Below are positions 3,757-32,261 of a DNA stretch of 32,815 nt, piece by piece. The first letter of the stretch is position 1. The number at the start of each line of letters is the position of its first letter. The notes under the pieces were generated by a model, which worked only from the letters and a program-made list of their open reading frames with translations, had not been told where the DNA came from and ran no database searches. The DNA lies in the NCBI GenBank assembly GCA_020848295.1, contig JADLAI010000086.1, forward strand, positions 1 to 32,815, read 5' to 3'. The translations under genes were made by a program, and so were the position numbers. The stretch is from Flavobacteriales bacterium (lineage in GTDB: Bacteria > Bacteroidota > Bacteroidia > Flavobacteriales_F > PHOS-HE28).

Positions 3757-3804
3757 CAAAAGTGGAAGCCCATGCACCCGCAGCACCATACCATGTGCAT
3801 GGTA
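3757..3804 (-). promoter_or_regulatory. dyad-controlled promoter of the peptide / ThiF / kinase / regulator operon
   Basis: On the plus strand 3789-3804 reads TACCATGTGCATGGTA, a dyad in which all but the central base pair match. On the gene strand the half near the promoter is ATGGTA. After 28 bases comes TTTG (3757-3760, within CACTTTTG), matching the core of the Bacteroidota TAnnTTTG -7 box. The predicted start of transcription falls about 17 bases before the ATG at 3736. The site has the same geometry as five others in this window. The dyad would sit near -42, the position of an activator touching RNA polymerase. Confidence 0.65.
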
Positions 3805-3848
3805 TATGACCGATGCGGCGGTTGGGATATGATGAAGATGGTATGGTG
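3784..3848. repeat. nested inverted repeat between divergent operons
   Basis: CACCATACCAT at 3784-3794 is repeated in inverted form as ATGGTATGGTG at 3838-3848. The left arm overlaps the dyad of the minus-strand promoter and the right arm overlaps the dyad of the plus-strand promoter. The arrangement could let a dimeric regulator bound at both dyads coordinate the two divergent units, or it may simply reflect the shared ATGGTA half-sites. Confidence 0.5.
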
Positions 3849-3874
3849 TGCGCCTGACGAACAGGGGAGTTTTG
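3828..3874 (+). promoter_or_regulatory. dyad-controlled promoter of the plus-strand fibre gene
   Basis: 3828-3843 reads TATGATGAAGATGGTA. The promoter-side half ATGGTA is intact and the outer half is degenerate. After 27 bases comes TTTG (3871-3874, within GAGTTTTG). Transcription would begin roughly a dozen bases before the ATG at 3892. Spacing and half-site match the other five promoters, although the dyad is the weakest of the set. Confidence 0.5.
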
Positions 3875-3891
3875 CCCGAACACGAACGGAC

Positions 3892-5316
3892 ATGCTGCGC
3901 TTCACCATCACCTTATCGCTTTTCGTGGTTGGCACCGTGGTAGGGGCACAAGGGGTAGCCATTAACAGCAACGGGGCCTCTCCCGATCCCAGCGCGTTAC
4001 TGGACGTGGATGCCGCTGCCCTGGTCGGGACCAAGCGCGGGCTTCTGATACCGAGAGTCTCTTCCACAGAGCGCTTGGCCATAGTAGCTCCGGCCACTGG
4101 CCTGCTCGTTTTCGACACCACCTTCCTTGAATTCTGGTTCTTCGATGGGTTGGTATGGGTTCCCCTGAACAATGGTCGTGCATGGCGCCTCAGTGGGAAT
4201 GCGGGCACAACTGCGGGCACGCATTTCCTAGGCACCACCGACGCGGTGCGAATGGACTTCCGGGTGAACAACGAACCGGCCGGGCGCGTGGATCATTTCT
4301 TCAAGAACACCTTTCTCGGTTACAGGTCCGGTGCAAGCATGGTCAATGCACAGGGCAACACCTTCCTTGGGGCACATGCTGGTGAACAGTGTACCACCGG
4401 TCCGTTCAATACGGCGATCGGGTGGCTGAGTTTGCAGGACCTGGCCACCGGCAATGCGAACATCGCGATCGGCCCATACAGCATGCAGCACAGCACGGCA
4501 GGGCTTTCCAATATCGGGATCGGCACCGGCGCCTTGCGGTGGACCACCGGTCAACACAACGTGGCCATTGGTGCATCGGCGTTGACCAACACGGTTGCTG
4601 TGAATGGGAATACGGCGGTGGGATCGATGGCCCTTTACCAGAACACCACGGGTGTCTACAACACCGCCATCGGATCGAACGCGGGCCAGCAGAACGTGAC
4701 CGGAGAATACAACGTTGCCGTGGGTCAGATCGCGGGACCTGCGTCTGCTGGCCTTCAACATACCACGGCCATCGGTACGCAGAGTTCCACCCATGCCGAT
4801 GAGTCTACGGCCGTAGGTGATGTATCACGTGCGGAGGGTTTGAGGAGTTCGGCTTTGGGGTATTTCTCGCGGGCGGTGGGCCAGAACAGCACGGCCATTG
4901 GCCAGAATGCACTCGCCCTTTCGGCCAACAGTATTGCATTGGGCGGAACGGGAGCGAATGCCGTGAACGTCGGTATCGGTGTAGCCGCGCCGTCCGCCAC
5001 CCTGGAAGTGAACGGCTACACCAAGTTGGGCTCCAACGCTCCGGCGGTGCGCATGCTGAAGCTGACCAGCAACACCGCCAATGTCCAGGGGGGTAGCACA
5101 GCGATCGCTCACGGGCTGAGCGCTGCAAGGATCCTCTCTGTGAGTGTGCTCGTGGAGACCACCGCAGGTGATCTGCTGCCCGCGTTGCACCCGGTGTTCG
5201 GGTACACCTTCTACTTCACGGTGAATGCAACGAACGTGGTTGTGGTCAACCAGAGTGGCTCTTCCGGGAGCATACTCTCCAGACCCGTTCGCATCTTGAT
5301 CACTTACGAGCAATAG
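3892..5316 (+). CDS. secreted fibre/adhesin-like protein with YadA-type repeats, no S74 domain
   Basis: A 474-residue secreted protein. The start at 3892 opens a signal peptide (MLRFTITLSLFVVGTVVGAQ); the longer frame upstream would translate through the promoter. The N-terminal domain (GASPDPSALLDVDA, then RGLLIPRVSSTERLA, then a FWFFDGLVWV stretch) is shared with the three fibre genes at 5347-10534. The middle, roughly residues 140-370, consists of degenerate repeats of about 23 residues centred on NTAIG/NVAIG, like the beta-roll head of trimeric YadA-type adhesins. The C-terminus differs from its paralogues: it has GIGVAAPSATLEVNG and a beta-rich domain ending in RPVRILITYEQ instead of the S74 chaperone. 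I recognise that ending from other Bacteroidota fibre proteins. It is probably a surface fibre, divergently transcribed from the peptide/ThiF operon. Confidence 0.88.
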   Translation: MLRFTITLSLFVVGTVVGAQGVAINSNGASPDPSALLDVDAAALVGTKRGLLIPRVSSTERLAIVAPATGLLVFDTTFLEFWFFDGLVWVPLNNGRAWRLSGNAGTTAGTHFLGTTDAVRMDFRVNNEPAGRVDHFFKNTFLGYRSGASMVNAQGNTFLGAHAGEQCTTGPFNTAIGWLSLQDLATGNANIAIGPYSMQHSTAGLSNIGIGTGALRWTTGQHNVAIGASALTNTVAVNGNTAVGSMALYQNTTGVYNTAIGSNAGQQNVTGEYNVAVGQIAGPASAGLQHTTAIGTQSSTHADESTAVGDVSRAEGLRSSALGYFSRAVGQNSTAIGQNALALSANSIALGGTGANAVNVGIGVAAPSATLEVNGYTKLGSNAPAVRMLKLTSNTANVQGGSTAIAHGLSAARILSVSVLVETTAGDLLPALHPVFGYTFYFTVNATNVVVVNQSGSSGSILSRPVRILITYEQ

Positions 5317-5346
5317 TGCTTCGGTATTCTGGCGAGCGGTCAGCGC

Positions 5347-7053
5347 TCAATTCTTCGGCAGGGCCGTGGTCAGTAGCGCGCACCGCATGCGGATGATCTC
5401 CTGTTCCGCCCGGACCTCCTCCAGCTCCTTCTGTTGCTCTTGCACCGCCTTCACCAAGGGCACCACGAACTGTTCATAGCCGATGGTGTAGTGATCACGT
5501 TCCGTCAAAGGCCGATGAACACCGGAGAACTCGAATCCGAATGCCTGCGCCAGGCTGTCCACTTGCTGCGCGATGAAGCCGGTTTGTCGTTCCGCGGAAG
5601 CTGCGGTCACCGCTGTGTTGTAGTCTTCAACCTCCTGCACATGCGCACTGTCGCGCATGCGTTGCGCTAGGCCGGTGAAGGTGTCGTACGCAGCTACGTC
5701 GAACGTGTACGTGACCGGCCGCAGACCGTTGATGAAGGAGAGACCGAGCACATCCTCGCGCACATCGCGTTTGAAGCGCGCGTCGCTGATGTTCTGCCAG
5801 GCGCCGTAACCACCGGTGAGGTTGTTGTTGTTCGCGGCGTTCCCGATGCGGATGATATTCGCAGCAGGGCACACCGCATTGTAGCCCAAGGCCGTCTGGT
5901 TGCTCCCGCTCACGCTCATGACGGCTGTGTTGCCTACAGCGGTGCACAAGGACCCCGTGGCGTTGTTGGCCAGGGAGAGGCGGCCTATCGCGACATTGTA
6001 GTCACCTGTTGTGATCTGCTGTGCGCACATGGACCCAAGCCCGATGTTGTATTCCCCGTTGGTGAGGCTCGCCAGCGTACTCCCGCCCATACCACAACTG
6101 CCATCACCACCTGTCGTATTGCCCACGCCGAACGTGGTGATCCGGTCCGCGGTGGTGATGAAGGTCATTCCGAAGAGGGTGGTGTTGCGGGCCCCAACGT
6201 TCTGGCCCAAGGCGTTGTAGCCGACCGCGGTGTTCTCATCGTTCATACTTGCGACCTCCAGCGCGCCATATCCAAAGGCCGTATTATCGGTGCCTGTGCC
6301 GTACAACAGCGCGTTGTAGCCCATGGCCGTGTTGTTGGTGGCCGTTCCGGTGAAGCCGATCATCGCTTGCATGCCCACCGCCGTGCAACCCGTTGCCGTA
6401 TTCATTTGGGCCAGTGCCCATGCACCCACCGCCGTATTGCCGCTGTTGGTGCTGATGCTGTTCAGTGCTTGATAACCGACGGCTACATTATTGGAACCTG
6501 TTGTCAGGCTCCCGAGTGCGCGCCTGCCACACGCTGTATTGTTGGTGCCGGAGGTGTTGTCCCACAACGCGTATGAGCCCAACGCACTGTTGCCGGTGCC
6601 GGTATTGACCAGTAGCGCTCGATAGCCCCAGAGCGTATTGTCCGAGGTGTTGGACACCCATCCGCTGCGCCAACCACTTTGCCTGAATTCCAGCGGCACC
6701 GCATCGGTGGTGCCCACGAAGTGCGTGCTTGCCGTGATGCCGGTATTGGACGGGAGCCTCCAGCCGAGCAGGGTGCCGAACAAACGTACCCATACTGTTC
6801 CATTGAAGTGCCAGAATGCGTCGGTGGTGGTCTCGTACACGAGCGCACCTTGCGCAGGTGTTGCGATCGCCGTGCGTTCCGTAGCCGTCATCCGTGGCAC
6901 GAGCATGCCCTTCTTCGCAACCAGGGAAGTGACATTCAGATCCAGCATCGCCGATGGGTCGGGCGCCGCGCCGTTGGCGCTGATGCCGACCTGTGCATGG
7001 ATGATGGGGCACGGACACAGCACGAACACGAGGAAGGCGAACAAGCTTCTCAT
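5347..7053 (-). CDS. secreted fibre protein with YadA-type repeats and C-terminal S74 chaperone domain
   Basis: 568 residues, third gene of a three-gene fibre operon. The ATG at 7053 overlaps the stop of the gene before it (ATGA), which fixes the start and gives a signal peptide (MRSLFAFLVFVLCPC...HAQ). Then come the shared N-terminal domain (SAMLDLNVTSL, KGMLVPRMTATERT), NTA(V/F/M)G repeats over about residues 140-400, and the S74 domain, the chaperone of endosialidase first known from phage tail spikes. Ser423 starts SDARFKRDV; in that family the chain cleaves itself just before this Ser after trimer folding. The domain continues with RQTGFIAQQV and [16 protein letters not shown] and ends in a coiled-coil helix. 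It is probably a trimeric surface adhesin. No T9SS sorting domain is visible, so the export route is unclear. Confidence 0.92.
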   Translation of the reverse strand: MRSLFAFLVFVLCPCPIIHAQVGISANGAAPDPSAMLDLNVTSLVAKKGMLVPRMTATERTAIATPAQGALVYETTTDAFWHFNGTVWVRLFGTLLGWRLPSNTGITASTHFVGTTDAVPLEFRQSGWRSGWVSNTSDNTLWGYRALLVNTGTGNSALGSYALWDNTSGTNNTACGRRALGSLTTGSNNVAVGYQALNSISTNSGNTAVGAWALAQMNTATGCTAVGMQAMIGFTGTATNNTAMGYNALLYGTGTDNTAFGYGALEVASMNDENTAVGYNALGQNVGARNTTLFGMTFITTADRITTFGVGNTTGGDGSCGMGGSTLASLTNGEYNIGLGSMCAQQITTGDYNVAIGRLSLANNATGSLCTAVGNTAVMSVSGSNQTALGYNAVCPAANIIRIGNAANNNNLTGGYGAWQNISDARFKRDVREDVLGLSFINGLRPVTYTFDVAAYDTFTGLAQRMRDSAHVQEVEDYNTAVTAASAERQTGFIAQQVDSLAQAFGFEFSGVHRPLTERDHYTIGYEQFVVPLVKAVQEQQKELEEVRAEQEIIRMRCALLTTALPKN

Positions 7054-9295
7054 GGTGTGCGCGGGCTTGTGGTAGAATACGTTGCGGAAGCGTCTTTTTC
7101 CAGTTGTTCCAGGCGCACCATCAGTTCCTGGTTGGCGGTGCGCAACGCCGCGATGCGTTCTTGCTGCTGTTGTACGCTGCGCACCAAGGGCACCACCCAA
7201 GCGGCATAGCCGATGGTGTAATGGTCCTGCTCGGTGCTGGGCACGTGAACGATATCGGTACACACGTCGAGTTGGTGCAATGTGGCGGCAGCTTCTTGTG
7301 CAAGCAATCCGGTGTGGCGTTCCTGTGCCACGCGCTCCCATCCCGCGCGGTGCTCGGCCAGGGCGGCGGCATCGCCCGATCGTTCCAGTCGTGCTTCAGC
7401 ACCCAGGAAGCGCTCGATGGCCGGTGCATCCAACCGGTAGGTGACCGGTCGCAAAGCGCCGATCAGTTCAATGCCGGGCACATCTTCGCGTACGTCGCGT
7501 TTGAACCGTGCATCGGAAGGGTTCTGCCAGGCGCCGAAACCACCCGTGAGGTTCGTGCTTAACGTGGTGCCGAACACGATGCGGCCGGTTGCGGAGGGAA
7601 CCGCATTGTAGCCGATGGCGGAGGTGTAGTTGAGGGTGCCCACAGTGGGTCCAGCGAATGCACCCAAGCCTGTGTTGAAGCTGCCGGATCCTACACCATC
7701 CAGAGCGGAAAAGCCGAGCGCCGTGTTCTGCGAGCCTGTTGCGCCGATGAGGCTCTGCGCGCCGATGGCCGTGCAGTTGTCGTTGACCGTGCCGGTCGAT
7801 AATGCGGCGAACCCCACGGCGCAATTGCCATTACCGGTGGTCACGTTCGTCAGCGCGTTGTACCCGAAGGCGTGGTTCGCGTACTCATCCGAAGTGGCAC
7901 ACGCACCAGCGCCGAAACCGAAGCCGGCCAGCCCCATCGCGGCACCACGGCCCACACCGTTCGCTCCGGCCATGCCCGCCTGGTAGCCCATGGCGGTGTT
8001 GTCATAGTTGTTCGGGGTGGCGAGCATGGCTTGCGAACCAGCTGCAGTGGCGTAGTCATTGTCCGAAGCTTCCAGTGCGCGGTAACCCACCGCCGTGCTC
8101 GAACTGCCGTACACATCCCTGAAGGCGCGATGACCGATGGCCGTGTTGCTGGAGAATGCCGGGATGGACAGGTCGTTCAGCATGGTTTCGCTGCCGATGG
8201 CGGTGCAGTCGTAGGTGCCTGCCGGTGGCTTTATGGCGTTGTGACCGATGGCCGTGTTCTCTTCTTGTGTTGCGGCCCCGGATCCTTGCAAGGCCTCGTA
8301 GCCGAAGGTGGTCTGGTCCACTGCCGTGGTGAGGTTGGCCAGGCTTGCGCGTACACCGAAGGAAGTGATGTCCAAGGCGATGCGCCCCGCCATAACGCCG
8401 TTCGCGCGAAGCTGCAACGGCTGTACATCGCTGGTGCCGATGAAGTGGGTGCCTGCGGTGAGTCCGGTATTGCCGTTCACTTTCCAGGTGTTCAGATCAT
8501 CGGCCCATTCCACCCACACCGTTCCGTTGAAGTACCAGAAGCTGGTGGTGGTGATGTCGTAAACGAGCAAACTGACCGCCGGTGTAGGAATGGCGTTGCG
8601 CTCTGCGGTGGTCATGCGCGGGATCAGCATCGCGCGCTTGCCGTTCGCCGGAAGGGCCGTTGCGTCCACATCCAGCAAAGCGCTCGCATGGGGCGTTGCT
8701 CCGGTGGTGTTGATGCCCACGTTCTGCGCATGAAGGGCGCTGCCCAACAGCAATGAGCAGCACAGCCACAATCCCCAACGCACGCTATGTTGAATGCTGT
8801 TCATGGCGCTTTTTGGAGTGGTCCGTTCGCGACTTCCATTTCCGCGATGCGCTGTTGGAGCATCACATTCACCTGCTCCAGTTCTTCGATCACGGCATGT
8901 TGCTCTTTCACCGCTTGGATCAGCGGAAGCGTGAACAATTCATACCCGAGCGTATAGTGGTCGTTGGCATCCACCGGATGGTGTACCCCATCGAAATCGT
9001 ACCCGATCGCCGCTGCGGCCGCTTCGACCTCTTGCGCGATGAAACCTGTCTGGCGTGCAGCGGAAACCTCCGCAAGGCGCTGGATGTATCCGGCGCGGTA
9101 TTCGCCTTTCGAAAGGGTGTCCATCACGTACCATGCGCCGGAGGCCTTCTCGATCAGCTCCGCATCCAGTGCATAGGTGACCGGTCTTAAGCGCAGCACG
9201 AAGTCGAGACCGGGCACATCGGCTTGTACATCGCGTTTGAAACGGGCGTCGGAGAAGTTCTGCCAAGTGCCATATCCTCCGGTCAGGTTGTTGTT
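5755..9295. repeat. homologous DNA blocks around the S74 cleavage site in three tandem genes
   Basis: The DNA coding for the start of the S74 domain is closely similar at about 5755-5825, 7486-7556 and 9225-9295. For example GTTCTGCCAGGCGCCG occurs identically at 5791-5806 and 7521-7536. A more diverged version lies at about 15890-15920 in the collagen-like fibre gene. Such blocks could support recombination or gene conversion among the fibre genes. Confidence 0.6.
7050..8804 (-). CDS. secreted fibre protein with YadA-type repeats and C-terminal S74 chaperone domain
   Basis: 584 residues, middle gene of the fibre operon. Both ends are 4-base ATGA overlaps with its neighbours. It has a signal peptide (MNSIQHSVRWGLWLCCSLLL...HAQ), the shared N-terminal domain (HASALLDVDATALPANGK, then AMLIPRMTTAERNA), head repeats built on NTAIG/NTAMG/TAVG over about residues 150-400, and the S74 domain with the putative self-cleavage Ser430 in NPSDARFKRDV. 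TGLLAQEAAATLHQ and HYTIGYAAWVVPLVRSV follow, then a coiled coil rich in Gln and Glu. Its repeat region is less regular than that of the 8801-10534 protein. Like its neighbours it is most likely a homotrimeric surface fibre; a heterotrimer among the three is possible given their equal size and coupled translation. Confidence 0.92.
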   Translation of the reverse strand: MNSIQHSVRWGLWLCCSLLLGSALHAQNVGINTTGATPHASALLDVDATALPANGKRAMLIPRMTTAERNAIPTPAVSLLVYDITTTSFWYFNGTVWVEWADDLNTWKVNGNTGLTAGTHFIGTSDVQPLQLRANGVMAGRIALDITSFGVRASLANLTTAVDQTTFGYEALQGSGAATQEENTAIGHNAIKPPAGTYDCTAIGSETMLNDLSIPAFSSNTAIGHRAFRDVYGSSSTAVGYRALEASDNDYATAAGSQAMLATPNNYDNTAMGYQAGMAGANGVGRGAAMGLAGFGFGAGACATSDEYANHAFGYNALTNVTTGNGNCAVGFAALSTGTVNDNCTAIGAQSLIGATGSQNTALGFSALDGVGSGSFNTGLGAFAGPTVGTLNYTSAIGYNAVPSATGRIVFGTTLSTNLTGGFGAWQNPSDARFKRDVREDVPGIELIGALRPVTYRLDAPAIERFLGAEARLERSGDAAALAEHRAGWERVAQERHTGLLAQEAAATLHQLDVCTDIVHVPSTEQDHYTIGYAAWVVPLVRSVQQQQERIAALRTANQELMVRLEQLEKDASATYSTTSPRTP

Positions 9296-10534
9296 CACAA
9301 CCACCCCGATGTTGATGCGGTTCGTGGCCGTTGGGGTTGCCGTTGCCCCTATACCTGCGCTGTTGTTGTAGTTGCCGGTGATGCCTGCGAACGAGCCGAT
9401 GGTGGTGTTGTAGTCGCCGGTGGTAAGGCCCAACGACGTGTTGTAGCCACAGGAAGAATTGTACAGGCCGTTGGTAAGGCCCGTGGCACTGCCAATGCCC
9501 GCGCCGGTGTTGTACGATCCCGTGCAAGCGGGCAGCGCATCTTCGCCGAAAGCCGTGTTGTACGAGCCGGTGCTGTTGGCATCCAGTGCGTTGGCCCCGA
9601 TGGCACTGTTGCCGGCACCGGTGGTGTTGTTGAACAGGGCCTGGAAGCCCATCGCGGAATTCTGCGAGCCCGTGGTGTTGTTCATCAAGGCGCGACTACC
9701 CACGGCTGTGTTGGAGGCACCCACCGTGTTGTCCCGCAGTGCATTGAATCCAAAGGCCGTATTGCTGGATGCGGTGGTGTAGCGAAGTGCTTGATATCCC
9801 ACGGCGGTGTTGTAGTCACCGGTGAGGTTGCTGCTCAAGGCGAGGTAGCCCACAGCGGTATTGTCGAAGCCGGTGGTGTTCAGGGCCATTGCGCGATAGC
9901 CTATTGCGGTGTTGCGCGAGCCGGTGTTGGCGTTCAAAGCCTCGTAGCCCACGGCGGTGTTGGAGCTGCCCGTGGTGATGTTGCGCAATGCGTAGGCCCC
10001 CACGGCCGTGTTGTTCGTACCCGTGGTCAATGTGCGCAACGCGAACTTGCCGAAGGCCGTGTTGTTCACACCGGTCGCGGTGGGCATCGCCAAGTGGCCG
10101 AAGGAGGTTTGCGGTATGCCATCGGCGAGATATCCCGCGCGTTCGTTGGCGACGCGGAACTCCAAGGTGGTACTACCAACCAATGAGCCGACCGCATCGG
10201 TCGCGGCGGTGCCTGCATTCCCACGCGTGCTCCAGTGGTTACCTGCTGTCACGGCCATCCACACCACACCATCGTAGTACCAGAATTGGCCCAGCGATGT
10301 ATCGAACACGAGCAGTGCCTCGGCAGGGCTGGCAATGGCGGCGCGCTGCACCGTGGTCATGCGCGGCACCAGCAGGCCTTTCTTCCCGTTCGCTGGGAGG
10401 GCGCTCACATCCACATCCAGCAAGGCCGAAGCGTGGGGCGCGGCACCGTCGGCGTTGATGCCGATGTTCTGCGGTAACGCCGACCCGACGAGCCCGCAGC
10501 AGAGGCATGTGACGAGTGCACGCATGGTGGACAT
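8801..10534 (-). CDS. secreted fibre protein with regular YadA-type repeats and C-terminal S74 chaperone domain
   Basis: 577 residues, first gene of the three-fibre operon. I choose the ATG at 10534; the ATG at 10525 (MRALVTCLCCGLVG) would also give a signal peptide. Its repeats are the clearest in the window: about ten copies of a 23-residue unit of the form NTAVGYxAL-x-NTTGS over residues 150-390. The S74 domain begins at Ser428 (FSDARFKRDV) and contains RQTGFIAQEV and HYTLGYELFTLPLIQAV before a terminal coiled coil. A dyad promoter lies in the 84 bases between the response-regulator gene and this one, so the fibre operon is probably a direct target of a NarL-type regulator. Alternatively it is read through from the kinase/regulator operon. 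Confidence 0.92.
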   Translation of the reverse strand: MSTMRALVTCLCCGLVGSALPQNIGINADGAAPHASALLDVDVSALPANGKKGLLVPRMTTVQRAAIASPAEALLVFDTSLGQFWYYDGVVWMAVTAGNHWSTRGNAGTAATDAVGSLVGSTTLEFRVANERAGYLADGIPQTSFGHLAMPTATGVNNTAFGKFALRTLTTGTNNTAVGAYALRNITTGSSNTAVGYEALNANTGSRNTAIGYRAMALNTTGFDNTAVGYLALSSNLTGDYNTAVGYQALRYTTASSNTAFGFNALRDNTVGASNTAVGSRALMNNTTGSQNSAMGFQALFNNTTGAGNSAIGANALDANSTGSYNTAFGEDALPACTGSYNTGAGIGSATGLTNGLYNSSCGYNTSLGLTTGDYNTTIGSFAGITGNYNNSAGIGATATPTATNRINIGVVVNNNLTGGYGTWQNFSDARFKRDVQADVPGLDFVLRLRPVTYALDAELIEKASGAWYVMDTLSKGEYRAGYIQRLAEVSAARQTGFIAQEVEAAAAAIGYDFDGVHHPVDANDHYTLGYELFTLPLIQAVKEQHAVIEELEQVNVMLQQRIAEMEVANGPLQKAP

Positions 10535-10541: not shown

Positions 10542-10588
10542 CAAAGCACGGCGGCTTGCGGAGTGGCGGCAATACCACTCCCGTGTTA
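10542..10588 (-). promoter_or_regulatory. dyad-controlled promoter of the three-fibre operon
   Basis: Plus-strand 10573-10588 reads TACCACTCCCGTGTTA, five of six outer pairs matching; on the gene strand the promoter-side half is GTGGTA. After 27 bases comes TTTG (10542-10545, in GTGCTTTG). The start codon at 10534 lies only 7 bases beyond that box, so the message would have almost no leader if 10534 is right, or a slightly longer one if the ATG at 10525 is used. A separate 6-bp hairpin (GAGTGG/CCACTC, 10561-10580) overlaps the dyad. Confidence 0.6.
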
Positions 10589-15381: not shown

Positions 15382-15427
15382 GGTGGTGCGTTCGCAGGTG
15401 TTCAGACGACCTCCACAAGATAGAAGA

Positions 15428-15461
15428 CCGAACGCTCCCGGAGTCATCCGGGCGCGTTCGG
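15428..15461 (-). terminator. likely intrinsic terminator after the collagen-like fibre gene
   Basis: A 14-bp stem with one mismatch (plus strand CCGAACGCTCCCGG against CCGGGCGCGTTCGG) and a six-base loop AGTCAT lies 15 bases past the stop codon at 15477. On the gene strand it is followed by TCTTCTATCTT, a modest U-rich tail. It separates the long barrel/giant/fibre operon from the kinase pair and implies that the kinases have their own promoter in the remaining 46 bases, where I see no clear -7 box (TATCTTG is the nearest). Confidence 0.7.
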
Positions 15462-15476
15462 CCTTCCAAAGGCTAC

Positions 15477-18458: not shown

Positions 18459-18461
18459 GGC

Positions 18462-18950: not shown

Positions 18951-18997
18951 CGAAGTACCCGCGCGGTTGGTGGCACTACAATACCACGTGCGTAGTA
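18951..18997 (-). promoter_or_regulatory. dyad-controlled promoter of the T9SS protein / collagen-like fibre pair
   Basis: Plus-strand 18982-18997 reads TACCACGTGCGTAGTA, five of six outer pairs matching; the gene-strand half near the promoter is GTGGTA. TTCG (18951-18954, in GTACTTCG) follows after 27 bases and the ATG lies 18 bases further on. The dyad starts 2 bases past the stop codon of the fibronectin-III gene, making this an internal promoter of the long operon. A 25-bp block including the dyad (18976-19000) recurs without mismatch at 29696-29720. Confidence 0.65.
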
Positions 18998-21036: not shown

Positions 21037-21039
21037 GGA

Positions 21040-24000: not shown

Positions 24001-27000
24001 GGCATCGGCGAACCAGTACCGTGTGCCATTCACGGTACCGAACTGTGCCGCCGCTGCCACTTCCAACGCGCCTTTCATGAACCACGCTTTCACGCTGCCG
24101 TTGATGCCATTGCCGTAGGTGGGATCGTCGTGGTACCAGCGGAGCCCACCGATGATCTTCACCGCGCCGGTCTCGCCGGTCACCCCGATGGAGTCGAGTT
24201 CCACGGAGTGGTGACCCCACTGGTGCAATGCCGAGGTGTTCAATTGGCCCAGCACAGCAATACGCGTGGTGGCCACGAAGATGTTGGTCTGTCCGCTCAG
24301 GTTCAGGTTGATGTCGAAACCGATACCGGCCATGATACCACCTTCGGAGTTGCGCCGTTCGGTGGTCACGCGGGTGATGCTGATCGGAAAGCCGCCAGTA
24401 CTTCCACCGGTGGGTGCGTTGTCATCCGACAAGTCTTCGGCGTACGCTGCGCCCATGTACTTCTGCGGGCTCGCTAGGGAGAACACGCCGTTGTCGGTGG
24501 CGTTGGTATACGGGTCGTCCGTTTGGAAGTAGAGGCCTTGGAATGCGATGTCGCGGAAGTTGATGTTCAAGGCACTGGGCATGTTCACATCCACGGTGAG
24601 CTTACCGTTCAGTTCGGCGCGCGCGCTGTTGCCGGTGTTGGCATCGCCGAAAATGGCCCGCACCGTACTGGTCTCGAGCAGCTCGAGCTGGCCCACGTAC
24701 ATCGGTATGTTCAATTGTCCATCGGGGTGCAGCAGGAATTCCATGCGTGTATCCTCTGTCTGCGGATCATGCTGGATCATGCCGGTGTACAGCAGCAACG
24801 TGTCGCTGAACGGCATGCGGATCCGCCCGCTGAAACCGCCTTGGGCGAAGGCGTTCGCAACAATGTCGGCGTGCAGGGTGTCCAGGGAGAATCCCCATCC
24901 GTCCAAAGTACCCTCGTCGGTATCGAGCACATTGGCCACCTTGAATTTCGCGGACACGCCGTTACCGAACTCATAGATGAAGTCGTCCACTTGAGCGGTC
25001 ACGCGGCCTGCACCTTCCAAGCGCTGGATGGTCGGAGGCATCCGCAGCATGGTGCGCTTTACGAACACCCCGGTCCAATCATCGGTGATGGTGCCGTCTT
25101 CCTGCATGCGATCGCTGGTGAGGAAGTGGCCCTGCGGCAATTCCATTTCCGGCGGATTGATGTAGCTCGCCAGATCCAGCCAGGCTTCCTGCACATCGAA
25201 GCCCCAGCTCTTGGCGTTGGTCAGGTGGAAGGGGACGTTCATGTCCAGGCGCCCCATCACACCGCCACGACCGGTGCGCACGCGAAGCGAGCCGATCACT
25301 TTGCGCGGCCCATCTTCTCCGTTGGCGAGATCCTCGCGCAGCTTCTCTTGGCCGAAGCGGTATTCGAGGTCGATGGTGGCTGCGCGGAATCCGTTGCAAT
25401 CCCAGGCCACGAAGGTTCCGCTATCCTGCACGGTGGTGAAACCATCGGCGAAACGCGCGCCGTTCAACTTCACGGTGTCTTCACCAAGCGGCACACGCAC
25501 TTCACCCAGGAGATAGAGCGTGGCTTCTTCGGAAAGATCACCGATACCGCCGGGGTGGAACGGTACCGCCATATTGCCGAGGCCAAGCACTTCGCCCAGG
25601 TCTTGCATGGGTAGAGCCATGCCGGCGTTCAAGCGTGCGATGGTGTCGGTGAACTGTACGCCGAGAATGCCGATCACCACACGCCCTGCGGGCAATTCCT
25701 TGTCGATGCCGATGGGTAAGCCCATGGGTGAGCTGCCCGCGAACTGGCTCACCAAACGGCCGGCGGTGTTCAGGTAGTCATCAATGGCTTGGGCGGCTTG
25801 TGGGTTGAAGCCTGCGGCGAGCGAGGTGCCCGTGGCCCATGCAGGCGGGATCACACCTTCGTTGTCGTACATGCCGTTCACCACACCGTCATACACGCGT
25901 TTGTTCGCATTGATCCGGACATTCGTGAAGCGCACGCGCAAGGCGGCTTTCATCACCGGCACATCCACCAGTCCTTCACCGGATGCCATGTTGGCCGCAC
26001 CGTAGGTGATGCTGGTCAACCGCATCTTGAACAGGCCCACTTCCACGGTGTCGCCGGTGTGGAAGGTGGTCACAGCCACTTGATCGATGATGGATGTGGG
26101 CGCACGACGACAGACCGCCAAGCATTCCGCAGGTGGGATCACGTCCTCTTCTTCTGTGGTCGTTGTGGATCCGCCACCGCCTTCGCCATTCTCACCGATG
26201 GTGAAGCTGTACGTAGGACCTGCCCGGTAATGTGGACCGAGTTCACTGTTGGGGTCGGTCAGCCAGACGATACGCCAGTAGTAGGTGCCTTCTGCGTTGG
26301 GTGTGAAGGCGAACTCCACTTCCTTGTAGAGTTCGGCGATCATGCACGCTTCATCGCAGCTCTGTTCCAGCAGGTCAAGGAGCATGCCCACCCGTCCGCT
26401 TTCAAAGGCTTCCCGGATGGCGAAATCGGTGGTCTTGGAAACATCCAATCGCCAGCGCTGGTAGATATGGCCATTGGTCTGTGTGCTGATGCCGTCCACG
26501 TTCTGGATGATGGGGAATGGAGGCAACAGGCGCGCGGGTGGCTCGGCCGTTTTGAAGCGAAGGAGCACGGGCGCGTAGCCGGTCTCTTCGAGATCACCGC
26601 CGTTGCGGGGCAGTTGCGCCTGGTGCGGCGGGCTGATCATGCGGGGCGTGCCCATGCCAGTAGCGAAGCCGCCAGCCATGTACCCGGTGATCGGGTCGCC
26701 ATTGTCCGGCATCAAGCGAACGGTCGCGGTCATCATGTGCTCTTCACCGGAGTCGAATCGCATCACGCCGGGATCGGTGTCCCGCTTGTAGATGTTCACG
26801 TGTCGCGACTGGTCTTGCGTTACCGGAATACCCAACACTTCTTGTTGGGAGGGCTGTGGCCCATCGGCCCAGACCAATTCGCGTTGGTAGTCCTGCTGCT
26901 CACCACCCACATGGATCAGCGTTAGCTCGCTTTCGAACTGTGTGATGTCCGCGCGGTATGGATCGAAGCGCGCCACGATGGGCATGAAGTCCCACGGTAG

Positions 27001-27933
27001 CGTATCGTTCACCAGGGGATAGGCGAAGGTGAAGCTGGCGTCGTCGCTCCACGTGAACGTACACGGTTCGGACCAGCCGTTGTTCTGGAAGGTGTGTGCG
27101 CCGTTGATGTCCACTGCGCGCACGTACCACGCGTACCGTCGACCGGTCAACAGGGCCGGCATCAACTGCGTATAGAGGAACTGTGGGTTCATCACATCCT
27201 CCTCCCAAATGGGGTCCATGGATGTTTCCAATGCCGAGAGCGGGTCGATGGCCTCAGCTTCTTCCGGTAACACCACCAGCTTGAAATGGTATTGCACCAC
27301 GGCGCCCATCGGTGGTCCGGAAGGCAGGATCCAGTTGAAGAGCACGGATTGCGGTTGGGTTCCGTTCACGACCTGGCCACATGCCGGGTTGAGCAATTGC
27401 GGCGGCGGCGGATAGCTTACGGTGAAGATGTTGGAACAACCCGAGCTGGGCGCACCCGCGCTCAAGGGTTCGTTGGTGATGTAGTCGAATGCCTGGAGGC
27501 AGATCTGGTAATCGCCCTCGGGCAACAAGCCCAACCGGATATCCTCTTCGGTGATGCCGGTGTATTGCACCTGCCCTCCGCCATTGGCGATGAACGGTTG
27601 CAGGTCGGCGCCGGTGAATGCGGAGAAACCCACGGGAACAATGAGCGGCGGAGCGTTCCAAGGCTGGCCACCTTCAATGCGCACGCTGATGCTGCCATCC
27701 AGGGTGGCGATGGAACCCGCGAGATAGATATCCCGCGTTTGCGCTTCCAGTCCCTCGTTGACGATCATCAACGATACCTGCATGGGGTTCTGGAAGTAGG
27801 CGGCGTAGTTGGCCGTGTACGGTGGGTTAACCGTGGTGCTCAGCGTGAGCGGATCGAGTTGTGCGCGTGTGCCGAACGTGAGCAGTGACACGAATGCGAC
27901 GACGAACGGACGCAGGAGAAGTTTGGTGGCCAT
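21040..27933 (-). CDS. giant secreted multidomain protein (2297 residues)
   Basis: The largest gene here. A signal peptide (MATKLLLRPFVVAFVSLLTFG...AQ) leads into a beta-rich N-domain (residues about 26-170: VNPPYTANYAAYFQNPMQV, LPEGDYQICLQAFDY) that resembles what I remember as the TANFOR domain of Bacteroidota surface proteins; this match is not firm. Fibronectin-III-like modules follow to about residue 575 (YAWYVRAVD, YYWRIVWLTDP), then a Gly/Thr/Glu-rich linker (GEGGGGSTTTTEEED) near 580. The middle and C-terminal parts are long beta-strand-rich regions that I cannot assign. I see no T9SS sorting domain at the C-terminus (GGIPNGGAMQTAP), unusual for so large a secreted Bacteroidota protein. 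It is flanked by an outer-membrane barrel gene (6 bases upstream) and a fibronectin-III gene (3 bases downstream), which suggests one envelope complex. Confidence 0.8.
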   Translation of the reverse strand: MATKLLLRPFVVAFVSLLTFGTRAQLDPLTLSTTVNPPYTANYAAYFQNPMQVSLMIVNEGLEAQTRDIYLAGSIATLDGSISVRIEGGQPWNAPPLIVPVGFSAFTGADLQPFIANGGGQVQYTGITEEDIRLGLLPEGDYQICLQAFDYITNEPLSAGAPSSGCSNIFTVSYPPPPQLLNPACGQVVNGTQPQSVLFNWILPSGPPMGAVVQYHFKLVVLPEEAEAIDPLSALETSMDPIWEEDVMNPQFLYTQLMPALLTGRRYAWYVRAVDINGAHTFQNNGWSEPCTFTWSDDASFTFAYPLVNDTLPWDFMPIVARFDPYRADITQFESELTLIHVGGEQQDYQRELVWADGPQPSQQEVLGIPVTQDQSRHVNIYKRDTDPGVMRFDSGEEHMMTATVRLMPDNGDPITGYMAGGFATGMGTPRMISPPHQAQLPRNGGDLEETGYAPVLLRFKTAEPPARLLPPFPIIQNVDGISTQTNGHIYQRWRLDVSKTTDFAIREAFESGRVGMLLDLLEQSCDEACMIAELYKEVEFAFTPNAEGTYYWRIVWLTDPNSELGPHYRAGPTYSFTIGENGEGGGGSTTTTEEEDVIPPAECLAVCRRAPTSIIDQVAVTTFHTGDTVEVGLFKMRLTSITYGAANMASGEGLVDVPVMKAALRVRFTNVRINANKRVYDGVVNGMYDNEGVIPPAWATGTSLAAGFNPQAAQAIDDYLNTAGRLVSQFAGSSPMGLPIGIDKELPAGRVVIGILGVQFTDTIARLNAGMALPMQDLGEVLGLGNMAVPFHPGGIGDLSEEATLYLLGEVRVPLGEDTVKLNGARFADGFTTVQDSGTFVAWDCNGFRAATIDLEYRFGQEKLREDLANGEDGPRKVIGSLRVRTGRGGVMGRLDMNVPFHLTNAKSWGFDVQEAWLDLASYINPPEMELPQGHFLTSDRMQEDGTITDDWTGVFVKRTMLRMPPTIQRLEGAGRVTAQVDDFIYEFGNGVSAKFKVANVLDTDEGTLDGWGFSLDTLHADIVANAFAQGGFSGRIRMPFSDTLLLYTGMIQHDPQTEDTRMEFLLHPDGQLNIPMYVGQLELLETSTVRAIFGDANTGNSARAELNGKLTVDVNMPSALNINFRDIAFQGLYFQTDDPYTNATDNGVFSLASPQKYMGAAYAEDLSDDNAPTGGSTGGFPISITRVTTERRNSEGGIMAGIGFDINLNLSGQTNIFVATTRIAVLGQLNTSALHQWGHHSVELDSIGVTGETGAVKIIGGLRWYHDDPTYGNGINGSVKAWFMKGALEVAAAAQFGTVNGTRYWFADAMFAKEGGFSPGQPFNVYGFGGGAWYHMRRVGEVPSAATVTAATITNQDDEDYTPGLTLSNVVYRPDASELFGFKATVIFGDGASGRAYNGDLTAGMTFSESGGVSTAFLNGNVYMMADRNDREHVPIRGTAAISYDFPNDVFQANFQMFVTIGIGIVTGTGPNDLAGGAELLITPDTWHFFVGTPQTPVGLDYLGLFSSTSYFMVGQDLPDPLPPDSSAVLALLGNTDFSWPNGVDEATGIAFGARAAMDQKFDFYLLRMQLHAGLGFDMAFVSAANMACEGIADPGIAGFYATGQVFAYLGGSVSLHVDVWFAEGDFEIMKIAAAAMLQGGFADPSWVRGDVGGEYSILGGMIDGSFNFPFSAGHPCDNFGGGALAGLDPIGDITPHHNDGIAPGTTPVDVGINCEVALNMKLDVPFNLKEYREDGSSYWRTFRLVLDAAQLKRVGTEQQTTIEMSPSKDQIVVVPARYLDPFTKYTFSVKLRAEERNSEGLWATAITQGEQAVWDSTIAFKTGEGLKELREQDIVYTYPFIGQRYVLQDECRSAIIHCKGDLSSQTLLFGPAAPGRTRIYKVMLTPHLGGATITCLAIVALEENDPTIITFNLPPLMNHKTYVAQFIYRDSLIAGTVGQQALGADLADISALSMSTVNTSASTSSANGLTMNIKRRRLSGYSLRRNEKLLFTYFFATSNFNTITAKAASLTNSITHLESDGASPPRETLRPDFQGERFDVFDVLGYTSAVRPSFKIAPLIGLTDALADAWSRQWSDPVLYDYYAEIKAQGCSSMDLQRSLVYSMGVPYISDSPDPIGMPPYRTVTWRAGNPTMQPLTSEETAPAPAMGMVAQQVGSMAISDGAPPASVRLDNATPRWVRNDQQRLVSITANVIAKCGPLNGADSPGENMGDMVEPLRSMVIRFQNSGFKRAYRGNYRIRFSFQPPPTCQQFADWNQTIDLSSGEAIYNHTQGPLATPNQAAGGIPNGGAMQTAP

Positions 27934-27939
27934 GGTGCG

Positions 27940-29643
27940 TCAGGACTTGGGTTGGAACACGAACACGTAACCGGCGAGGATGCGCACCTCGGTGAATTCG
28001 CGGGAGGCCACGAACGTGGTGCTGTTGAAGAGTGCGTTGGCGGTGAGTTGAAAGCGATGCATGGCGGTGCAGCGGTATTGCATGGTGGCGCTGGCGTTCA
28101 CGGTGTTGCCCGCGGTGCGTCCGTCCTGCATGGCAGCGTTCCATGCCCCGTTCAGCGAGGCGGTCACCCTCTGCTTGGCCATGGTGCGGGAGAGGCCGAG
28201 CGATGGACCCACGAGGATGTACGACCCGTTCGCCGTGGCATTGCGGCTCATGTTCACCCCCCCGCTGATGCCCAGGTTGTCCGCATGGCGCGTGCGGCTC
28301 ACGAAAAGGTTGCCATAGACCACTTCGTTCTCTGCGGAAGCGAACGTGCCGTAGGGGTTCAGGTCTTGCAACTGCTGTAGACCGCCGGAAAGTGAAACGG
28401 TGAACGTGCGGTGCGAATTGGTGCGCATGTACCGTTGCGAAAGTGTCATGCTCCGGTTCACTTGCGCCACACGGAACGTATCGCTCAACACCCGCAGGCC
28501 CGCTTGCTGTTCGATGCCGTAGTTGCTGAAGTTGAGGTCTGCTCCGTAGCTGCGCGAAGGCGTCCAGCTCAGATTGGCCGAACCGATGCGACGCACGCTG
28601 GTAGCGGCTTTCCGACCGCTGAGGTTGTCCTGTTGGTGGCCGTAGCTACCCCCGACGCGCACCTTGTTCTTCCACAGCCGGAGGTTCGGTGCCACGGTGA
28701 TCGCGCGCAGATCGGCAGCCTGATAATACGCGCCCAAGGTGCGGTAATCAGGGTCCACCTGTTTCACTTCACCGCGCAGGCTGAAGATCTTGTAAGCGTA
28801 CGTGAGCGAGGTGTTGCCTGCGAACAACAGCTTCGCGCCAAGTCGTGGGTTGAAGATGCCTTGCACGCTGGTGGGCACATCGGAATCGGTGATCTCCAGG
28901 GCGCGCACATCCTCATTCATCGCACTCGCCCCCAGATCGAATTGCCACGTAAGGCGTTTGCCCAAGGCCAGACGGCTGCTGATGCCAGCAGCCACGTTTT
29001 CCTTGGGCGCGCTGGCTTGGTCCACGCTCTTCACCGCAGGGATGGAAGCACTGTCATCCGCCGCGCGGAAGAACATCACATCGAAGTAGTTGCGGCGGTT
29101 GCCCACGCCGATCTTCACGCCGTACCCGGTGCGTTCGTAAGCGGGTCGTGGTGCGATGGAGGCCAGCGTATCCTGCGCTACTGGCTTGTTGAAACGCCCA
29201 TAGAAAGCAGCGAAGCGGAAGCCTTTCGGTTCCAGTTCCACACCTGCACCGAAGAACTGCACACCCGCCATGGTGTACGGGTTGAACCGGATGCTGCGAT
29301 AGCCCAGGTGCAACCTCGCCCACTTGTAATGGGGGCTCATGCCGTAGCGGTTGAAGGGCTGCGTCCATGTGCGCTGTTGCGAGCCCACGTTGAAGCTCAC
29401 GGGTACCTGTAGACCATACACGCTCAGCGTTACGGACCCGCTGGTATTCCACCAGAACGGCTCATTGCGCGGGGTGCCATCACCACTATGGAAGTAGGGA
29501 CCCCCCAGCAACGAAAAGCTCCCGTTCAGCCGTACGGGCTTCTCCTTGCCGATGGCACCCAGGTCCTGCCCGTGCGCACCACAAGCGACCAGCATCGCGA
29601 CCAGCAAAGGCGCAAGGGAAGAGAGCGGAACAAGGCGGGACAT
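27940..29643 (-). CDS. outer-membrane beta-barrel protein
   Basis: 567 residues. The ATG at 29643 opens a signal peptide (MSRLVPLSSLAPLLVAMLVACGAHGQ); a Cys near its end raises the possibility of a lipoprotein, but the typical lipobox is not convincing. The rest is made of alternating amphipathic strands ending in aromatic residues (for example WARLHLGYRSIRFNPY, FRFAAFYGRFNKP, YGVKIGVGNRRNYFDVMFF) and closes with AGYVFVFQPKS, as expected for a barrel C-terminus. It begins the long operon and lies 6 bases before the giant-protein gene, so it may export, anchor or assemble that protein. A dyad promoter sits just upstream. I cannot place it in a named family. Confidence 0.8.
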   Translation of the reverse strand: MSRLVPLSSLAPLLVAMLVACGAHGQDLGAIGKEKPVRLNGSFSLLGGPYFHSGDGTPRNEPFWWNTSGSVTLSVYGLQVPVSFNVGSQQRTWTQPFNRYGMSPHYKWARLHLGYRSIRFNPYTMAGVQFFGAGVELEPKGFRFAAFYGRFNKPVAQDTLASIAPRPAYERTGYGVKIGVGNRRNYFDVMFFRAADDSASIPAVKSVDQASAPKENVAAGISSRLALGKRLTWQFDLGASAMNEDVRALEITDSDVPTSVQGIFNPRLGAKLLFAGNTSLTYAYKIFSLRGEVKQVDPDYRTLGAYYQAADLRAITVAPNLRLWKNKVRVGGSYGHQQDNLSGRKAATSVRRIGSANLSWTPSRSYGADLNFSNYGIEQQAGLRVLSDTFRVAQVNRSMTLSQRYMRTNSHRTFTVSLSGGLQQLQDLNPYGTFASAENEVVYGNLFVSRTRHADNLGISGGVNMSRNATANGSYILVGPSLGLSRTMAKQRVTASLNGAWNAAMQDGRTAGNTVNASATMQYRCTAMHRFQLTANALFNSTTFVASREFTEVRILAGYVFVFQPKS

Positions 29644-29670
29644 GGTGGTGGCGTGTTCTCCACGCGTCGC

Positions 29671-29717
29671 CAAAAGTCCCGGTATGGCCGGGGGGCTACA
29701 ATACCACGTGCGTAGTA
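29671..29717 (-). promoter_or_regulatory. dyad-controlled promoter of the barrel / giant-protein operon
   Basis: Plus-strand 29702-29717 is TACCACGTGCGTAGTA, identical to the site at 18982. TTTG (29671-29674, in GACTTTTG) follows after 27 bases, and the ATG at 29643 lies 27 bases beyond it. The dyad begins 4 bases after the stop of the response-regulator gene. A short 5-bp stem (CCCGG/CCGGG, 29678-29692) lies between dyad and -7 box; on the gene strand ACTTTTGG follows it, so it could be read as a weak terminator, but its place inside the promoter spacer makes that doubtful. Confidence 0.65.
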
Positions 29718-29721
29718 CGCC

Positions 29722-30359
29722 CTACCGTCCCGGGAACGCCTTGCGCACCACTTCCATACGCGAGCCTACCTGCAATTTCTCGTAGATGTGGCGCACGTGT
29801 TTGCGTACCGTTTCGGTGCTGATGCCGGCCTTGGCGGCGATCTCTTTGTACATGAGACCATTGGCCAGCTGATCCAGGATCTGTTTCTCGCGCTCGGTGA
29901 GCAGTTGGTCCTGTATGCTTTGCTGGGCCTGCTGTTGGAAGCTGGCCACCACCAAGCGTGCAATGGGTGGTGACATGGGCGAACCACCAGCGTGGATGTC
30001 GCGCACAGCGGCGATGATCTCTTCCGGATCGGCGTTCTTCACCAGATCGCCGGTAGCGCCAGCGCACAGCGCTTGGTGGATGTAGGCCGGGCTTTCGAAC
30101 ACAGTGCTCATCAGGTATTGGGTGGAGGGCTGGAGAGGCTTGGCGTGCCGCACGACTCGATACCGTTGGTGCCGGGCAGCCCGATGTCCATCAGGACCAC
30201 AGCGGGAGTGATCCGTTCGCGGTCCGCCAGGAACAGGTCCGCGTCAGGAAACGCCCCCACGACCTGAAGCCCGTCGGCGCGTTCCATCATGCTGCGCAAG
30301 AGCTGTCTGATCTCGCGATCATCTTCAACGATGGCGACACGGATGGGAGAAGCGGGCAT
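29722..30359 (-). pseudogene. NarL/FixJ-type response regulator with a one-base frameshift
   Basis: Two reading frames together rebuild one response regulator of about 212 residues. The N-part from the ATG at 30359 holds EDD, phospho-Asp in VVLMDIGLPGTNGIE and then runs into a wrong frame. The C-part, in frame to the stop at 29722, resumes with VRHAKPLQPSTQYLMSTVF, the receiver Lys (GDLVKN) and the LuxR-type helix-turn-helix (LTEREKQILDQLANG, STETVRKHV). Compared with its intact paralogues (NGIETVRAAKP, NGIDCVANAKP) exactly one base is missing at about 30154-30155, where GAG-TC-GTG should be GAG-TCn-GTG. There is no homopolymer at the spot. It is either a real inactivating mutation or a sequencing/assembly error. 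Everything else is well conserved, which favours an error or a very recent loss. It lies 25 bases after the kinase stop. Confidence 0.85.
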
Positions 30360-30384
30360 CCCCTTCAATATACGGAAGGTCCGC

Positions 30385-32208
30385 TCACGTCAGGGGCCCT
30401 TCAAGCGTCACGGTGCAGCCCGTACCAGGTGTTGCCTCCACGGTGAGGTTGGCTTCCATGGCTGCGGCGCGGGACCGCATGTTGCGCAGGCCATTACCGA
30501 CACGTGCCAGCGCCTCCGGGTCGAACCCCGCACCATTGTCCGTCACAACCAGCTTCACACGGGTTGCACCGGCATCCAGGAGCACGGTGATGTGTGATGC
30601 GTTGGCGTACTTCATCGCATTGTTGATCGCTTCCTTCATCACCATCACCACATGGTGCTTGGTGCCGGGGGCTACGGTGTGCTCCGGATCGTTGTGCTGG
30701 AAACGCAGTGTACTGGCGATACCGCTATCCTGCAGTGTGCGCTGCGCCACGGCACGCGCGTGGCTCACCAGTTCGGCGCTGGTGTCGCGCATGGGGTCCA
30801 CGGTCCAAACGATATCGCTGAGGGCGGCGTTCACCTCGCGGCTGTGCCCGATGATGCGGTCCAGGGCACTGCGCAGCTCATTGGAATGTTCGTGCAGGCT
30901 GCGTTTGACCTCGCTCCCCAACATGGCGATCTTGGTCAGACCGCTGCCGATATCGTCATGGATATCACGAGCGATGCGGGTGCGCACCTGTTCGTTCTCG
31001 CGTTGCTTCTCGGCGTCCACCACCAGCTGTTGTGCGGCCAGGATCTGTGCGTTCTTACGGCGGGTGGTGATCAGCAATGCGGCCAGCAGCACGGCCACGA
31101 GCAGGATCAGCCCACCACCCACCATGGTGTTCCGCTTCATCCGGCGCTCTTCTTCCAGGCGCGCGTGCAGCGCAGCCTGCTCTCGGTCGTGTTCGGCTGT
31201 CAACCGCACCTCGGTAAGTTCCTGGGCTTTCTCCAAGTCCAGACTTTTGATCAATGCTGCACGGGAACTATCCTGTTTCAGCAACGCCTCCTTGTAGTGT
31301 CCTTTTGCGCTGGCCACCAGAGCGAGCAGTTCGTTCGCGCGATACAAGTGCTCGTCATTGCCCACTTCCTTCGCCAGGCGCAGGGCCACTTGGGCAAGGC
31401 GTTCCGCCTCATCCGCTCGTCCCAGGCCGAGCAAGGCATGTGCTTCGTGGTACAGGAAGATGCACTGATCAGGGGCATTCTCGCCATCCATGATCAATGG
31501 CCTGGCCAGCGAGAGTTCATGGTAGGCCGAGTCGAACCGGCCGAACTTATTGTGGATCTCGGCCACGTCCATACGGCTCAGCGCGGCCAGCCCGTCATGT
31601 CCCGAGCGAATGTGAAGGTCCACCGCGCGGTGCTGCATGGCCATGGCCTTGTCGAACTGTTGCAGCTCGAAGTGGATGGTGCCCAATCCGGAATAGGTGT
31701 TGGCCAGGTTGCCATCTGCTGGAAGTGTAAGGAGGATGGCCAATGATCGTTCGGTGATCTCCAGCGCTCGCTCAGTCTCGTCCATGGATCGGTACTGATA
31801 GCCTTGATAGTTCAGGGCGGCTGCTTCATCCTTCTTACGCCCGAGCGTCCGTGCGGCTTTTTCCATCTCTTGGAAACGCAGTAGGGCTTGTGCGTACCGA
31901 CCAGCATAGTGGTGGGCCACTCCTTGCAACTTGTTGGCGTGGAGGGTACGCTCCGTCAGGGCGGCTGCGTTGCTGTGGATCTGAGCGACCAGCTCCAGAG
32001 CGGCATTGGTGGCGGTCACTGGACTTTCGGTGCGCCCGGTGGATACCCAAGCCTTGGCACTGTCCAGCAATGCGTCGATGCGTACCGTGTCTGCGAGTGT
32101 CTTGCTCGCTCCGCGGGCCAATTCCTGTATCGCGAGGCTGTCGGGGTTCTGCCCAAACGAAGCGATGGCCATGGCCGAGAGCAGGAGCAGGGCGGAGGAC
32201 TTCAACAT
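30385..32208 (-). CDS. TPR-containing sensor histidine kinase
   Basis: 607 residues. The ATG at 32208 is chosen over a GTG two codons upstream; it starts a signal peptide (MLKSSALLLLSAMAIASFGQ). TPR-like repeats cover about residues 60-330 (for example ALNYQGYQYRSMDETERALE), then comes a membrane span at about 363-382 (GGGLILLVAVLLAALLI), a coiled coil and the H-box with His417 in ARDIHDDIGSGLTKIAML. The ATPase has MKEAINNAMKYA, TDNGAGFD and GNGLRNMRS. It is closer to the kinase at 645-2480 than to the tandem pair. The frameshifted response regulator follows directly, so if the frameshift is real this kinase lacks its own partner. Its dyad promoter suggests autoregulation. Confidence 0.94.
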   Translation of the reverse strand: MLKSSALLLLSAMAIASFGQNPDSLAIQELARGASKTLADTVRIDALLDSAKAWVSTGRTESPVTATNAALELVAQIHSNAAALTERTLHANKLQGVAHHYAGRYAQALLRFQEMEKAARTLGRKKDEAAALNYQGYQYRSMDETERALEITERSLAILLTLPADGNLANTYSGLGTIHFELQQFDKAMAMQHRAVDLHIRSGHDGLAALSRMDVAEIHNKFGRFDSAYHELSLARPLIMDGENAPDQCIFLYHEAHALLGLGRADEAERLAQVALRLAKEVGNDEHLYRANELLALVASAKGHYKEALLKQDSSRAALIKSLDLEKAQELTEVRLTAEHDREQAALHARLEEERRMKRNTMVGGGLILLVAVLLAALLITTRRKNAQILAAQQLVVDAEKQRENEQVRTRIARDIHDDIGSGLTKIAMLGSEVKRSLHEHSNELRSALDRIIGHSREVNAALSDIVWTVDPMRDTSAELVSHARAVAQRTLQDSGIASTLRFQHNDPEHTVAPGTKHHVVMVMKEAINNAMKYANASHITVLLDAGATRVKLVVTDNGAGFDPEALARVGNGLRNMRSRAAAMEANLTVEATPGTGCTVTLEGPLT

Positions 32209-32213
32209 CGGCA

Positions 32214-32261
32214 CGAAGGTCGTTTGGTGGATCGATCAACAGGAATACCACATAGGTAGTA
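32214..32261 (-). promoter_or_regulatory. dyad-controlled promoter of the fourth histidine kinase
   Basis: Plus-strand 32246-32261 reads TACCACATAGGTAGTA, five of six outer pairs matching; the gene-strand half near the promoter is GTGGTA. TTCG (32214-32217, in GACCTTCG) follows after 28 bases. It lies only 5 bases before the ATG at 32208, so transcription would begin at or beside the start codon and the message would be essentially leaderless. Confidence 0.6.

Follow-up and report, generated by a model that had tools for sequence, protein, structure and literature searches.

Inverted-repeat sites at a fixed distance from Bacteroidota-type promoter boxes accompany a NarL/LuxR-type response regulator family in a Flavobacteriales surface-protein cluster and across the class Bacteroidia

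Several described systems come close to the locus considered here. The Escherichia coli response regulator NarL binds, as a dimer, inverted heptamers that are 2 bases apart (the engineered site used in electrophoretic mobility shift assays is TACCCCTAAAGGGGTA), and at napF and yeaR its sites directly precede the point where transcription begins (PMC4549865). Promoters of the Bacteroidota primary sigma factor carry a -7 box, TAnnTTTG, at -12 to -5, with the transcription start 4-5 bases later (PMC6847099; PMC9723704), as well as a TTTG element at -33 (PMC6847099). The FimS/FimR pair of Porphyromonas gingivalis is a Bacteroidota two-component system regulating surface fimbriae (PMC1974823), while the peptide-modifying enzyme MccB of the microcin C system acts on a C-terminal asparagine (PMC12250964). 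Here we describe six 16-bp inverted repeats (dyads) in a Flavobacteriales contig (JADLAI010000086.1 of assembly GCA_020848295.1; its 32,815 nucleotides are referred to as the window), which also encodes three NarL/LuxR-type response regulators (RR1, RR2 and RR3), together with the counterparts of both in the same genus and class. LuxR-type two-component regulators are abundant in Bacteroidota, and a search of the open literature, outside which most subscription papers lie, found no described operator for this family. Specifically, the FimR operator sequence was not found in the text of the FimR paper (PMC1974823), and the text of a Flavobacterium psychrophilum transcriptome paper describes sigma motifs and does not mention LuxR or a palindrome.

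The six dyads are listed below, with their letters in gene orientation and the genes that each of them would drive.

3789..3804, minus strand: dyad TACCATGCACATGGTA, 28 bases to TTTG; peptide, ThiF, kinase and RR3 operon
3828..3843, plus strand: dyad TATGATGAAGATGGTA, 27 bases to TTTG; YadA-head surface protein
10573..10588, minus strand: dyad TAACACGGGAGTGGTA, 27 bases to TTTG; three S74/trimeric-adhesin-like genes
18982..18997, minus strand: dyad TACTACGCACGTGGTA, 27 bases to TTCG; protein with a type IX secretion system (T9SS) tail, collagen-like S74 protein, two kinases and RR1
29702..29717, minus strand: dyad TACTACGCACGTGGTA, 27 bases to TTTG; 577-aa exported protein, giant protein and fn3 protein
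32246..32261, minus strand: dyad TACTACCTATGTGGTA, 28 bases to TTCG; kinase, then RR2

A first-pass annotation had reported these six dyads, their orientation and the gap of 27 or 28 bases to TTYG, all of which match the letters of the window. Its division into four surface-protein and two kinase promoters has to be amended, however, as the dyad at 32246 alone would drive a kinase directly and the one at 3789 opens the peptide, ThiF, kinase and RR3 operon. All six dyads have outer TA/TA and four of them TAC/GTA, the site at 3828 being the least symmetric; a scan of the window with a neutral symmetric 12-position consensus found only these six at 11/12 or better. The genes are arranged nearly head to tail, and every recognisable transcription unit in the window opens with one of the dyads. 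Start codons follow 9 to ~31 bases past the first base of TTYG (for the promoter at 29702, the start codon at 29643 was taken from the open reading frame, ORF).

We consider it likely, judging from the sequence, that the dyads are operators of the three cluster-encoded NarL/LuxR-type regulators, which would activate themselves and the neighbouring genes. More specifically, each regulator would be partnered by a TPR-containing HisKA_3 kinase, and the phosphorylated regulator dimer would bind the 16-bp inverted repeat, generalised as TAnnAY-N4-RTnnTA, whose centre is placed at about -43.5 relative to the transcription start. There the dimer would abut the -33 region and recruit RNA polymerase that carries the primary sigma factor of Bacteroidota to the -7 box, a TAnnTTTG presumably degraded to TTYG in this G+C-rich genome. 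In this way, the kinase/regulator pairs would govern their own expression as well as that of the nearby genes for adhesin-like, T9SS-tailed and peptide-modifying proteins. We infer, as parts of this scheme, the binding by RR1-RR3, its dependence on phosphorylation, activation over repression and the pairing of each regulator with its sites.

The geometry of the promoters was counted over all non-redundant sites from loci that had not been chosen by motif. TTTG follows the dyad at an offset of 26 bases in 12 cases, 27 in 20 and 28 in 3, against a background of ~1 per other offset, and 19 of the 22 occurrences of TAnnTTTG near dyads stand at offsets 26-27. Among 41 sites with the architecture, T at -4 of TTYG (23) and A at -3 (31) recur although neither was required by the search, position 5 of the dyad is A in 39, and the two bases right after the dyad are T in 31 and 25, respectively; TT(G/T) is common there, which is consistent with a -33 element touching the dyad. 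The published coordinates of the -7 box place the dyad at about -51 to -36, so that an earlier estimate of a centre near -42 stands as to the approximate position (near -43), with about -43.5 as the better value. In many Bacteroidia regulators (L131, L132, L133, L135, L136 and others) the TTTG box ends 4-5 bases before ATG; given the published distance from box to start, the regulator mRNA is predicted to be leaderless or nearly so.

Alternatively, the same regulators at the same operators might act as repressors, either whenever bound or in the unphosphorylated state, by occluding the -33 region. Repression is common at autoregulatory sites, and the downstream edge of the dyad, at about -36, adjoins the -33 element. 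NarL, too, acts as a repressor at some of its sites (PMC4549865). On the other hand, the spacing of 26-28 bases is fixed across the class, as would be needed for contact activation and not for repression, and the -7 boxes of the window have the weakness seen in promoters that depend on an activator. Together these two features favour activation by polymerase contact, and we regard repression as rather unlikely.

The source assembly (2.59 Mb in 254 contigs, 66% complete) holds 11 matches to TAnnAY-N4-RTGGTA, of which 7 (6 sites) fall in the 33-kb window and 4 in the other 2.56 Mb. The rate outside predicts 0.05 matches in the window, which corresponds to a ~100-fold higher site density within it and a Poisson P of ~2e-11, an optimistic value since the pattern was drawn from the same six sites. 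When the 27-base spacer is included, both assembly matches without mismatch and two of the three with one mismatch lie in the window. The first-pass annotation had held that an even spread of matches through coding DNA would speak against it; in the source genome the matches cluster in the window instead. Over the assembly as a whole there was no excess over a reversed-pattern control (11 vs 22 matches; 22 vs 32 when the 27-base spacer is included and as many as two mismatches are allowed). A genome-wide regulon in the source genome was ruled out, since outside the window the pattern is found no more often than its reversed control. The six dyads therefore form a local cluster, and the three NarL/LuxR-type regulators that the assembly has of this family all sit in the same window. 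The earlier proposal of one regulon is the best reading, as the dyad accompanies the regulator family across the class, but its reach in this genome is local.

In genomes of the same genus, loci of RR1 homologues were fetched by protein and not by motif (L118 alone was found by motif). Nearly all sites with the full architecture in these loci precede genes for signal-peptide proteins, a kinase or the peptide. Orthologous promoters, such as those of the T9SS-tail and 577-aa proteins in G002, G009 and G365, retain the dyad and its distance of 27 bases and differ in the letters of the spacer. For the window sites in turn, (i) the dyad at 3828 has an identical 16-mer at the same place in G002, (ii) the promoter at 18982 has orthologous sites in G002 (L045) and G009 (L117), (iii) that at 29702 has them in G002, G009 and G365, (iv) that at 32246 has an orthologous kinase promoter in G365 (L118:3193, in the motif-found locus) and (v) that at 3789 has similar sites before the peptide gene in G002, G415 and G411. 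In G021, a single perfect dyad, TACCATCTTGATGGTA (L055:7004-7019), separates two divergent genes and has a TTTG at exactly 27 bases on each side. As a separate observation, G004 carries two copies of TACTACTATTCAAGTA (L052:10640 and L052:16418), each followed by TTGAC and by TTTG at 27, with a divergent second half-site.

Across the class, 28 of 43 inspected matches to TACYAC-N4-GTRGTA-N26-28-TTYG are intergenic according to a simple gene caller, and 15 of the 43 lie at most 2.4 kb from a regulator of the RR1 family, where ~0.03 would be expected on our own estimate of about one such regulator gene per 6 Mb. In some of them the regulator start codon comes 5-6 bases after TTTG. In a comparison of 165 non-redundant regulator genes, 42 of the 104 close ones have a TACYAY dyad (at least 10/12 positions) in their upstream region, as against 2 of the 61 distant ones; six scrambled palindromes of like composition gave 1-8 of the 104 close ones. 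With TTYG at 25-28 bases added, the numbers are 20 close and 0 distant. The dyad is at -50/-51 from the regulator start codon in 22 cases, among them many metagenome-assembled genomes, and at -51 in Flavobacterium luteum and F. cellulosilyticum. Under a strict palindrome criterion (5 or more of 6 pairs, TA...TA, TTNG at 25-28), only 14 of the 165 promoters were recovered, with 0.65 expected in shuffles, owing to the many imperfect half-sites. In Chitinophaga (L249, L254, L284) and others (L241, L244, L247, L253, L255), the half-site at a comparable place in the promoter is TAACAT or TAACAC, and the type of dyad tracks the regulator tree, with 23 changes where shuffling gives 52 on average (0 of 200 shuffles as low), a test that is helped by near-copies among the loci. 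This shift between regulator clades might also serve to work out a specificity code for LuxR-type proteins. The neighbourhood order of kinase, site, regulator, site and secreted protein is repeated, and this module is widespread in Bacteroidia, the dyad being placed shortly before the regulator gene, the operon of its kinase or a neighbouring gene for a secreted protein.

Several points weigh against the dyads being operators of the cluster's own regulators. In 395 Bacteroidia genomes, the class-wide pattern gave ~60 matches vs ~80 for its reversed control; without an excess, the raw count was dropped as evidence, and the class-wide signal therefore rests on genomic context. The profile of the regulator family (A1), with which regulator loci of all scores were fetched in addition to 80 named genome records, had been seeded partly with motif-adjacent regulators, so that a first comparison (dyad at 15 of 29 high-scoring vs 1 of 41 low-scoring loci) is partly circular; the comparison of 165 regulators reduces this circularity, yet its loci were still fetched or ranked with A1. 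At the thresholds used, about half of the close regulators lack a site, and G007, which has the closest RR1 (85% identical), shows one weak candidate site (L043:6404). The -7 boxes of the window are poor matches that keep only TTYG, and the incompleteness of the source assembly counts on the same side.

A regulator encoded outside the cluster, or a global one, might bind the dyads, the response regulators being mere neighbours. Many regulator families do bind inverted repeats, but the good genome-wide matches are confined to the window that holds all three regulators of the family, the dyad co-occurs and co-varies with the regulator clade across the class, and NarL sites have the same 16-bp TAC...GTA layout, all of which makes such an outside regulator improbable. 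We give still less credit to the idea that the dyads act as RNA hairpins, either as terminators of the preceding gene or as elements of the 5′ untranslated region. Several dyads do stand close behind a stop codon (those at 18982 and 29702 begin 2-4 bases after it); however, of five folding z-scores four are close to 0, the best fold leaves the dyad arms unpaired in four of five cases, the dyad is upstream of the -7 box, and the sites at 3789/3828 and in G021 are flanked by divergent genes, with no transcript there that a terminator could end. Chance palindromes picked up by a loose pattern are barely credible: the pattern was indeed fitted after the fact and shows no genome-wide excess over control, but position and spacing are conserved in independent genomes and loci, and the comparison of 165 regulators with its scrambled-palindrome controls rules this explanation out.

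The gene content of the window was obtained from ORFs and from Pfam and NCBIfam domain searches, as follows.

1..631, minus strand: RR3, response regulator of the RR1 family, running to the contig end (family search)
645..2480, minus strand: TPR + HisKA_3 histidine kinase paired with RR3 (Pfam)
2482..3531, minus strand: MccB-like ThiF/E1-type adenylating enzyme (Pfam ThiF; best solved relative MccB, E 3e-26)
3575..3736, minus strand: 53-aa precursor-like peptide MNPIAFLAFLMG...KRGGWDRN (ORF, comparison with relatives)
3892..5316, plus strand: exported YadA-head surface protein (Pfam)
5347..10534, minus strand: three exported YadA-like/S74 genes in tandem (ORFs, Pfam)
10619..11254, minus strand: RR1, receiver + GerE (LuxR) response regulator (Pfam PF00072, PF00196; family search)
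11271..13376, minus strand: TPR + HisKA_3 histidine kinase adjoining RR1 (Pfam)
13369..15480, minus strand: second TPR histidine kinase of the RR1 operon (by reading of the translation, homologue of the neighbouring kinase)
15477..18932, minus strand: T9SS sorting-tail protein and collagen-like S74 protein (Pfam, NCBIfam)
19000..29643, minus strand: 577-aa exported protein, 2297-aa protein and 678-aa fn3 protein (ORFs, Pfam)
29722..30368, minus strand: RR2, response regulator of the RR1 family (ORFs; family search)
30385..32208, minus strand: TPR + HisKA_3 histidine kinase paired with RR2 (Pfam)

Kinase domains were confirmed by Pfam in three of the four window kinases, that at 13369-15480 being assigned by reading. 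RR2 reads in two overlapping frames, which points to an assembly indel or a decayed gene. In G028 (L059:4024-4230), a short orphan ORF of 68 aa with a GerE domain directly follows the regulator gene, and similar partial copies are found in L053 and L126. Against the NCBIfam NarL equivalog, a window regulator scores 122.6 bits, below the cut-off of 250, and against FimS a window kinase gives a weak match (42 bits vs a cut-off of 600) over part of the N-terminal region only. Rfam and tRNA searches of the window gave no matches.

The peptide (3575-3736) and the ThiF enzyme (2482-3531) belong together. The MccB-like enzyme was found in 5 same-genus genomes, including the source, of ~35 searched, and the four loci with context (L303, L305 and L306 among them) each have one or two precursors of 53-55 aa, MNPIA...GGWDxN, which always end in Asn and have a dyad upstream. 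One could go further and imagine a class-wide self-inducing sensory module with a signalling loop in its kinase/RR3 branch in this genus: the regulator would drive the MccB-like enzyme and the 53-aa, GGWDRN-ending precursor, and the modified product would be secreted as a signal or an antibiotic and be sensed by the TPR kinase while the adhesins are turned on; this we think unlikely.

The kinds of parts are all known, while their combination, the fixed geometry on a Bacteroidota promoter and the spread over the class appear to be undescribed. With a 16-bp site that is recognisable and keeps a constant distance from TAnnTTTG, regulons could be read from sequence across the class, including autoregulation of the regulators and the linked surface proteins; the arrangement would also be a natural model for regulated promoters that use the primary sigma factor of Bacteroidota, and it would tie a microcin-C-like peptide system to surface-protein control. 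With microcin C, the locus shares a ThiF enzyme that is closest to MccB among solved structures and a linked short peptide ending in Asn; however, the MccA precursor has 7 aa, whereas the conserved GGWDxN tail and the location in a two-component operon are particular to the peptides described here. FimS/FimR is likewise a Bacteroidota two-component system tied to surface structures. The promoters share TAnnTTTG at the predicted place with those of the primary sigma factor, and differ from them in the upstream operator at fixed spacing and in the -7 box that is weakened in the window genus. As for E. coli NarL, both systems have a regulator with receiver and GerE domains and a 16-bp TAC...GTA repeat in a site immediately upstream of the promoter; indeed, the NarL-like 7-2-7 geometry that had been proposed is borne out by TACCCCTAAAGGGGTA, which has the same outer TAC...GTA and the same length (PMC4549865). 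The inner letters differ (A at position 5 here, C in the NarL site), which makes these NarL-like sites and not NarL sites proper. Moreover, the partner is a TPR kinase in place of NarX/NarQ, the promoter is of the Bacteroidota -33/-7 type with a nearly invariant spacing, and the regulator genes are themselves putative targets.

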